DNA of 32,324 nucleotides. Origin: Bacteroidales bacterium. Lineage in GTDB: Bacteria; Bacteroidota; Bacteroidia; Bacteroidales; Bacteroidaceae. Under the pieces are notes generated by a model, which saw only the letters and a list, made by a program, of their open reading frames with translations, searched no databases and had not been told where the DNA came from. The number at the start of each line of letters is the position of its first letter. The first letter of the stretch is position 1. Positions 1,201 to 25,839 of the stretch are shown here, in pieces. The stretch covers positions 1-32,324 of the forward strand of contig JAQXRG010000093.1 of the NCBI GenBank assembly GCA_029218405.1. Reading direction: 5' to 3'. Made by a program: the position numbers and the translations under genes.

Positions 1201-1287
1201 GTTTTTTTTCCTCCTACATATTTGGTTCGTAATAAAAGTATTTGTAACTTTACCCCCGATGGCGGTCTTCCGGCCCCACCGGTTTTG

Positions 1288-1295
1288 CAAATGTA
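1288..1295 (-). promoter_or_regulatory. Candidate -7 box for the primase-like gene
   Basis: On the minus strand this reads TACATTTG, an exact match to the Bacteroidetes TAnnTTTG -7 element, about 90 nt from the start codon. No clear TTG -33 element lies at the usual distance; that position coincides with the left edge of the 20-bp palindrome at 1316-1335. A bound repressor could therefore block this promoter. Confidence 0.45.
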
Positions 1296-1315
1296 GTTCA
1301 TTGAAAATTGCGGAC

Positions 1316-1335
1316 TGTACATCCATGGATGTACA
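1316..1335. promoter_or_regulatory. Perfect 20-bp palindrome, likely operator
   Basis: The half-site TGTACATCCA is followed directly by its exact reverse complement. A short CGGAC direct repeat flanks it on both sides (1311-1315 and 1337-1341). It sits in the interval between two divergent genes, over the expected -33 region of the minus-strand promoter, which suits a dimeric repressor. The binding protein is unknown; the HTH-like product of 1416-1817 is the nearest candidate. Confidence 0.65.
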
Positions 1336-1349
1336 ACGGACCATGTCTG

Positions 1350-1380
1350 TTAGAAAGAATTAACGTTAATTGGCTTCTAA
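1350..1380. promoter_or_regulatory. Second inverted repeat in the divergent interval
   Basis: A perfect 14-bp AT-rich palindrome, AATTAACGTTAATT, lies at 1358-1371. It is flanked by a second pair of inverted arms, TTAGAA at 1350-1355 and TTCTAA at 1375-1380. It lies 36-66 bp before the start codon of the small HTH-like gene, so it could be that gene's own operator. Role inferred from position only. Confidence 0.5.
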
Positions 1381-1383
1381 TGC

Positions 1384-1400
1384 ATCGGGTAGTAACCGAT
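1384..1400. promoter_or_regulatory. Third inverted repeat, ATCGG-N7-CCGAT
   Basis: ATCGG at 1384-1388 is mirrored by CCGAT at 1396-1400, with one further inner pair. It ends 15 bp before the ATG at 1416, so it could act as an operator or as a hairpin in the leader of the HTH-like gene. Five-base arms are short and could arise by chance. Confidence 0.3.
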
Positions 1401-1415
1401 TTAATCCTCAGCGTT

Positions 1416-24820: not shown

Positions 24821-25839
24821 AAGCGATACAAATCTTAGGCGAGCGCCAGCTGGCGCTCATCGACCTTCCCGCACCCACCGAAGCATTGAGACCGGACGAG
24901 GTACGGGTACGAATGGAATATGTAGGTTTCTGCGGCTCCGACCTGAGCACCTACTTAGGACGGAACCCGATGGTGAAGCTGCCCGTCATCCCCGGACACG
25001 AGGTGGGCGGTGTCATCGAAGAAGTGGGCGCTGACGTGCCCGAAGGGCTGCGTCCCGGCATGACGGTGACAGTGAACCCCTACACCAACTGCGGCAAGTG
25101 CGCCTCGTGCCGCAACGGACGGCCCAACGCCTGCCAGCACAACCAGACCCTGGGCGTGCAACGCGACGGCGCGATGCGGGAGTCGATTGTGCTGCCGTGG
25201 GAGAAGGTGATTCCCGCCGGACTGCTGACCCCACGCACCTGCGCATTGGTGGAGCCGATGAGTGTGGGCTTCCATGCCGTCTCACGGGCCGAGGTGACCG
25301 ACATTGACGTGGTGCTGGTCATCGGCTGCGGCATGGTGGGCATGGGCGCCATCGTCCGCTCGGCCCAGCGGGGCGCCACGGTGGTGGCCGCCGACATCGA
25401 CGACGAGAAGCTGGCCTTGGCCCGCCGTCTCGGAGCCTCGTACACCCTCAACACACGCACGGAAGACGTGCATGCCCGCCTCTTGGAAATGACCTCAGGC
25501 TTCGGGCCGGACGTGGTGATTGAGGCCGTGGGCAGCGCGCCGACCTACCAGATGGCCGTGGACGAAGTGGCCTTCACCGGACGGGTAGTCTGCATCGGCT
25601 ACGCCAAGACGGAGGTGTCGTTCCAGACCAAGTTCTTCGTGCAGAAGGAGCTGGACATCCGTGGCTCGCGCAACGCCCTTCCCTCGGACTTCCGCGCCGT
25701 CATCCATTACCTGGAGCGCGGCACCTGTCCGGTCGATGAGCTGGTGAGCCGCGAGGCGGCCCCCGAAGAGGCGGCCGACGCCATGCGGCAGTGGGCGGAA
25801 GCACCCGGCCAGGTGTTCCGCATCCTGGTGCGGTTCTGA
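24817..25839 (+). CDS. Zinc-dependent alcohol (polyol) dehydrogenase
   Basis: 340 residues, medium-chain dehydrogenase. Catalytic zinc ligands C39 (C-G-S-D) and H61-E62 (P-G-H-E) are present. The structural zinc site is the four-Cys C-x2-C-x2-C-x7-C block in N-C-G-K-C-A-S-C-R-N-G-R-P-N-A-C. The Rossmann motif V-I-G-C-G-M-V-G-M-G binds NAD(P). It is related to sorbitol, threonine and L-galactonate/L-gulonate-type dehydrogenases. Its ATG overlaps the previous stop (ATGA). As last enzyme of the operon it may oxidise the sugar acid; the exact substrate is not determinable. Confidence 0.87.
   Translation: MKAIQILGERQLALIDLPAPTEALRPDEVRVRMEYVGFCGSDLSTYLGRNPMVKLPVIPGHEVGGVIEEVGADVPEGLRPGMTVTVNPYTNCGKCASCRNGRPNACQHNQTLGVQRDGAMRESIVLPWEKVIPAGLLTPRTCALVEPMSVGFHAVSRAEVTDIDVVLVIGCGMVGMGAIVRSAQRGATVVAADIDDEKLALARRLGASYTLNTRTEDVHARLLEMTSGFGPDVVIEAVGSAPTYQMAVDEVAFTGRVVCIGYAKTEVSFQTKFFVQKELDIRGSRNALPSDFRAVIHYLERGTCPVDELVSREAAPEEAADAMRQWAEAPGQVFRILVRF

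Follow-up and report, generated by a model that had tools for sequence, protein, structure and literature searches.

A recurring dyad between VirE-type primase genes and small divergent HTH genes in Bacteroidales, and its possible role as an operator

The locus and its inverted repeats

The window analysed here, a 32,324-nucleotide stretch of a Bacteroidales contig, begins with the 5' part (400 codons) of a gene of the BT4734-like_N/VirE type, hereafter virE, which occupies positions 1 to 1200 on the minus strand and is truncated by the contig end. BT4734-like (VirE/VapE) primases constitute one archaeo-eukaryotic primase family (PMC5862659), and the product of the window's gene resembles them in matching PF08800 well above the cut-off (E 2.4e-24, 86.4 bits against 22.4). 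Diverging from it on the plus strand, at 1416 to 1817, is a gene for a 133-aa helix-turn-helix (HTH) protein, the presumed regulator, and the next gene downstream of that one is classed as AAA-ATPase_like/PDDEXK_9 on the basis of Pfam. A near-identical locus (L007), differing by one base across the 215-bp interval between the divergent genes, is present in a MAG labelled Phocaeicola plebeius, and because of this near-identity it provides no independent evidence. Its complete virE gene encodes both the PF08800 domain and a VapE-like ATPase domain, PF05272 (102.7 bits against a cut-off of 25), and the cassette there runs in the order Amidase_2, HU-type, VirE (PF05272) and then the divergent HTH gene. 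One locus of genome G013 (L004) matches as the same contig as L007, while a second HTH copy in G013 (L006) is 34% identical and is likewise divergent from a VirE gene with a PF08800 match.

Two features of the flanking coding regions were recorded in passing. The virE coding region carries an 18-bp tandem repeat at 911-1024 (also 824-978) which encodes EGTAAP repeats in an N-terminal linker and which differs in L007. The L007 copy of the AAA-ATPase_like/PDDEXK_9 gene lacks about 0.8 kb in frame (window approximately 2116-2942; L007 5700-5720), giving 301 codons there versus 575 in the window, and a short GACAAG repeat lies at the ends of the missing segment.

The interval between the divergent genes (1201-1415) has a G+C content of 41%, compared with 61% for the window, in agreement with an earlier note on this DNA that had described it as more AT-rich than its surroundings. 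That note had also reported three stacked inverted repeats, and all three are found where it placed them. The first is a perfect 20-bp palindrome, TGTACATCCATGGATGTACA, at 1316-1335. The second is the 14-bp AATTAACGTTAATT at 1358-1371, flanked by a further pair of arms (TTAGAA at 1350, TTCTAA at 1375), and the third is ATCGGGTAGTAACCGAT at 1384-1400, of the form ATCGG-N7-CCGAT. No other perfect palindrome in the whole window is as long as the 20-mer. When the 215-bp interval was shuffled 5000 times with its dinucleotides preserved, a perfect palindrome of at least 20 bp never arose, whereas one of at least 14 bp arose in 2.2% of the shuffles. A perfect 18-bp palindrome, GAGCGCCAGCTGGCGCTC, is also present far from the interval, at 24841-24858. 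A search of the window's own genome for TGTACATCCATGGATGTACA with up to 3 mismatches returned a single 3-mismatch match elsewhere; a reversed control also returned one, so there is no sign of a regulon.

The position of the 20-mer relative to the predicted virE promoter is well defined. The Bacteroidetes promoter consensus is TAnnTTTG at -7 and TTTG at -33 (PMC7366714), and on the minus strand virE is preceded by TACATTTG (1288-1295, read 1295-1288), an exact TAnnTTTG whose TA edge lies 30 bp from the centre of the palindrome between 1325 and 1326. Counting 19-20 bp from this -7 box places the expected -33 region at 1315-1319, at the left edge of the palindrome and overlapping its proximal arm, which upholds the earlier statement that the palindrome covers the -33 region expected for this promoter. 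No TTTG is found at this place in the window. Between the virE start codon and the -7 box, GGCC-type inverted repeats were seen by eye in the window (1260-1285) and in the virE leaders of L042, L043 and L057, and these might form leader hairpins.

The HTH family and the dyad at its VirE loci

On sequence cut-offs, membership of the 133-aa protein in a named HTH family fails. All six of its Pfam hits are below cut-off (the best, HTH_8, scores 18.2 bits against 22), NCBIfam and PHROGs return nothing at E 0.1, and the best E-value of 13 other members of its family against curated families is 0.006. An AlphaFold2 model built from 14 sequences contains a helical HTH domain (pLDDT 78.3, pTM 0.65), with helices at residues 10-28, 35-42, 46-50, 63-80, 87-104 and 109-119. 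Its fold neighbours include the XRE-type controllers and repressors C.Esp1396I, the SaPI repressor 7p4a, pSK41 Cop and HipB. The best E-value is 0.067, and because such values are weak we place the protein tentatively in the XRE/Cro-like fold class and make no claim of kinship. The VIA-align list of neighbours also contains unrelated enzymes with HTH domains, and the absence of a family from it excludes nothing.

HTH profile searches, which overlap one another, gave hits in 10 of 399 genomes of the taxonomic family (the window's own included, and 3 of the 10 spurious), in 1 of 393 genomes of the order (its own) and in 7 of 119, 2 of 18 and 3 of 139 genomes of three genera. Six loci (L005, L044-L046, L121 and L122) were excluded as spurious or as other genes. 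The distinct true loci number 14, namely the window, L006, L038-L043, L050-L054 and L057, with L007 uncounted. A sequence search of plasmids, phages and viral contigs for the 133-aa protein found no match. Apart from the window and L006, VirE neighbours were identified by tblastn with the window's VirE as query, and the HTH gene is divergent from VirE in 13 of the 14 loci, the exception being L051.

At 11 of these 13 VirE-HTH intervals, the window included, there is a dyad at the same place, with other letters but a like layout and a yATrG-like centre. Its halves are CTGTACATCCA|TGGATGTACAA in the window, TTGTACTCTAT|ATAGTGCACAA in L006, TGCTGTACTCA|TGGATACAGCA in L038, GACGCACTCCA|TGGAGTGCAGC in L040, GCTGTACGCTA|TGGCGTGCAGC in L042 and TGGCGCATCCA|TGGATGTACCA in L052. 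In all 11, virE has a minus-strand TAnnTTTG-like box, and the dyad is centred 30 or 31 bp upstream of the TA in it, so that the dyad sits over the -33 region; the box is exact in 8 and has one mismatch in L006, L039 and L050. When dyads were scored at 29-32 bp from the box, none of 500 shuffles reached the observed score in 10 of the 13 loci. The other three comprise L041, where a dyad fits with an odd spacer (7/11, shuffle P 0.022), L053, where it is weak (6/11, P 0.094), and L054, which has a different dyad and no box. Since L042, L043 and L057 are nearly identical and L038, L039 and L050 are close, we count perhaps six or seven independent cases. In L051, the locus with an HTH gene and no VirE, a dyad of this kind is absent from the 341 bp examined.

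Across nine operators, the two halves match at 8.6 of 11 positions within a locus versus 4.5 of 11 between loci, and none of 20,000 re-pairings was as good, a contrast that is partly due to differing spacer lengths (the odd-spacer L041 pairs at just 4 of 11 in this comparison). Outer arms, judged by eye, vary in spacing from locus to locus and are mostly symmetrical. Among the grounds for rejecting a regulatory site, the earlier note had named a palindrome lacking conservation in orthologous loci. That condition has to be rephrased, since the letters do vary and the dyad and its place stay. Across 8 loci, how alike two operators are does not follow how alike the recognition helices are (rho 0.06, P 0.77), while for the rest of the protein the correlation with operator likeness is 0.46 (rho; P 0.014, from non-independent pairs). 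In a single case, the window and L052 agree at 14 of 16 operator letters and both proteins carry DRRT in the helix, with the remaining protein 33% identical.

The picture of three stacked repeats thus holds as a description of the interval, but of the three, only the one at 1316-1335 has dyad counterparts at related loci, and the putative operator is that one alone. From the second repeat, on the plus strand, only a TTAAC/TTAAT-like block recurs; 12 of the 13 loci have it, 24-36 bp to the right of the dyad centre, and in five it is repeated 10 bp further on. No ATCGG-N7-CCGAT was seen when the printed intervals of the relatives were scanned by eye, and on this comparison the third repeat is probably incidental. 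We take the 5-bp-arm repeat and the outer arms of the 14-mer as unremarkable.

Other VirE loci and a candidate facing promoter

PF08800 matches are widespread, occurring in at least 93 of 109 genomes of one genus and in 56 of 100 relatives, and PF08800 is listed among gut-enriched families (PMC2880560). We scanned 120 further VirE loci: 90 control loci, mostly better-scoring, taken from 146 PF08800 matches, and 30 among the matches listed in one genus. These were divided by the presence or absence of an HTH gene, using inspection by eye, an HMM built from the 14 family members and blastp searches with the other small HTH types, a procedure by which some HTH genes may be missed. The distance allowed between box and dyad was wider for these controls (28-33 bp) than for the positives (29-32 bp).

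Eight of the 120 have another small HTH gene, one of them a remnant, divergent from VirE, and three of these eight fit at 28-33 bp. In the three (L032, L083 and L084) the dyad resembles TTTTACC-N8-GGTAAAA and has its centre 32 bp from the box; in L032 and L084 this centre is 15-17 bp before the HTH start codon. Dyads lie 39 bp from a box-like site in L024 and L088; L090 has a similar dyad, at 39 bp by hand count, with its box off pattern, and L016 and L071 fit poorly. A profile made from the HTH proteins of L084 and L032, with the palindrome playing no part in retrieval, returned three hits. Two are not such loci. The other, L120, pairs a gene matching PF08800 (E 1.5e-33) with a divergent gene for a 46-aa HTH protein and has, between the two, a perfect 26-bp palindrome, AATCTTTCTCACA|TGTGAGAAAGATT, exactly 30 bp from CAAAGATA. 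We count L120 as a prospective success.

Among the VirE loci with no recognised HTH gene, 6 of 112 reach a dyad score of 8/11. These are L008-L011, which are 86-99.8% alike, and L142 and L151, which are 93% alike and AT-rich, and they therefore represent two lineages. In L008-L011 the dyad (for example TTAATCAC-N4-GTGATTAA) lies about 358 bp from virE; in L008, L010 and L011 it was seen before a divergent HU-like gene, of which it is perhaps the operator. A perfect 24-bp palindrome, ATTCGCGATTCG/CGAATCGCGAAT, was also noted about 323 bp upstream of virE in L106.

Within the virE leader, a candidate promoter for the HTH gene points toward the virE promoter. In the window it spans 1221-1252 on the plus strand (TTTG at 1221-1224, a 20-bp spacer and TAACTTTA at 1245-1252, with one mismatch) and is weaker than in several relatives. 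A plus-strand TTG-N19/20 followed by a -7 box with at most one mismatch occurs in the virE leader at 6 of the 13 loci versus 2 of 112 controls, the stretches compared being 36-222 bp in the test loci and 120 bp in the controls. The six are the window, L038, L039, L050 and L052, where it lies at -74 from the dyad centre in the last four, and L042, where it lies at -99; shuffle rates for them range from 2 to 16% per locus. The leader holds an exact plus-strand TAnnTTTG at 6 of 13 loci, against 15 of 112 controls; among the loci with other HTH genes the figure is 5 of 8, and L016 has one to the right instead. Neither feature is found in L006, L040, L041, L053 or L054. If the facing promoter is used, transcripts in the window would start near 1258 on the plus strand and near 1281 on the minus strand, leaving no room for two polymerases, so that use of the two promoters would be mutually exclusive. 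This arrangement suggests a phage-like, face-to-face switch.

A putative operator, its rivals and its relation to known switches

The comparative evidence, namely a recurring dyad, its position and its link with HTH genes, fits the earlier proposal of a regulatory site with the HTH-like protein as its likeliest binder. We consider it fairly probable that the dyad at 1316-1335 serves as operator for the product of the HTH gene at 1416-1817, that this protein silences virE and that the two facing promoters are mutually exclusive. A dimer of the XRE/Cro-like protein would place one arm on the virE -33 region and keep RNA polymerase off, so that virE would stay silent for as long as the regulator remained present and active. 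With the HTH promoter inside the virE leader and aimed at the virE promoter (as predicted at 6 of 13 loci, with one mismatch in the window), a bound HTH protein would mean virE off and HTH on, and an active virE would mean HTH off.

The same operator and binder could serve activation instead, with the HTH protein acting in a class II-like manner to replace the -33 contact of virE while shutting its own facing promoter. The missing TTTG at the window's -33 place is what such an activator would be expected to compensate, but the -33 motif is only loosely kept in Bacteroidetes anyway (PMC7366714). A dyad centred at about -43, by counting, suits an activator too, and weak CII-like hits (PHROG 191, PHROG 725 and Pfam CP76) each appear in 1 of the 14 family members. 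Many of the fold neighbours, however, are repressors or controllers, although controllers and the listed ClgR also activate. On balance, activation of virE seems unlikely, and the HTH protein probably represses it.

Palindromes are common at replication origins, and a primase gene adjoins this one, so the dyad might instead be a replication or recombination site on which the VirE primase, or the element's integrase or initiator, acts. Neither the constant spacing from the -7 box nor the association with HTH genes is explained by this reading, and where no HTH gene was recognised beside virE such dyads are few (6 of 112 loci). In addition, the operator letters vary by locus, with VirE proteins 42-51% identical to the window's, and the window's genome holds no convincing second copy. 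We regard it as very improbable. A structured leader RNA or a terminator between the divergent genes can be set aside almost entirely, since, although an inverted repeat this exact might adopt an RNA fold and use of the facing promoter would put the dyad within the HTH transcript, the dyad lies upstream of the predicted virE start, has no T-run beside it, pairs perfectly through its centre with no room for a loop, and gave no match when the interval was searched against Rfam.

Returning to the dyad as an operator through which the HTH protein silences virE, we suggest, as a tentative generalisation that we hold with some doubt, that these loci belong to a class of bistable switch in Bacteroidales. 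In such a class, an uncatalogued small XRE-like protein would be paired with a VirE primase through facing promoters and an operator 30-32 bp from the -7 box, with regulator and operator exchanged time and again (there are several HTH types, and the dyads differ with the type) and the geometry kept. If so, many of the VirE cassettes on chromosomes would be inducible elements lying silent, not debris. The fixed geometry would make it testable when VirE cassettes switch on and by which regulator each copy is controlled, and the loci could potentially supply matched HTH-operator pairs of different specificities for Bacteroidales genetics.

We found no description of the regulation of VirE-type primases in Bacteroidales among the open-access papers that we searched, and the passages of PMC5862659 that were consulted mention no local regulator or operator for the BT4734-like primases, unlike the putative one here. 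By analogy, the site appears to work like the local operator of a mobile-element repressor or of a controller protein. The restriction-modification controllers C.Esp1396I, C.BclI and C.AhdI share approximately 10-16% identity with the 133-aa HTH protein, which differs from them in its longer C-terminal part. The Stl repressors of staphylococcal pathogenicity islands differ in being larger, in having a sensing C-terminal part and in their induction by phage proteins. In phages P2 and 186, the promoters of regulator and effector face each other, with the operator on one of them. The likeness to the VirE loci would lie in this arrangement, if the facing promoter predicted at 6 of 13 loci is used, and the difference lies in the promoters, which here are of the sigma-ABfr type.
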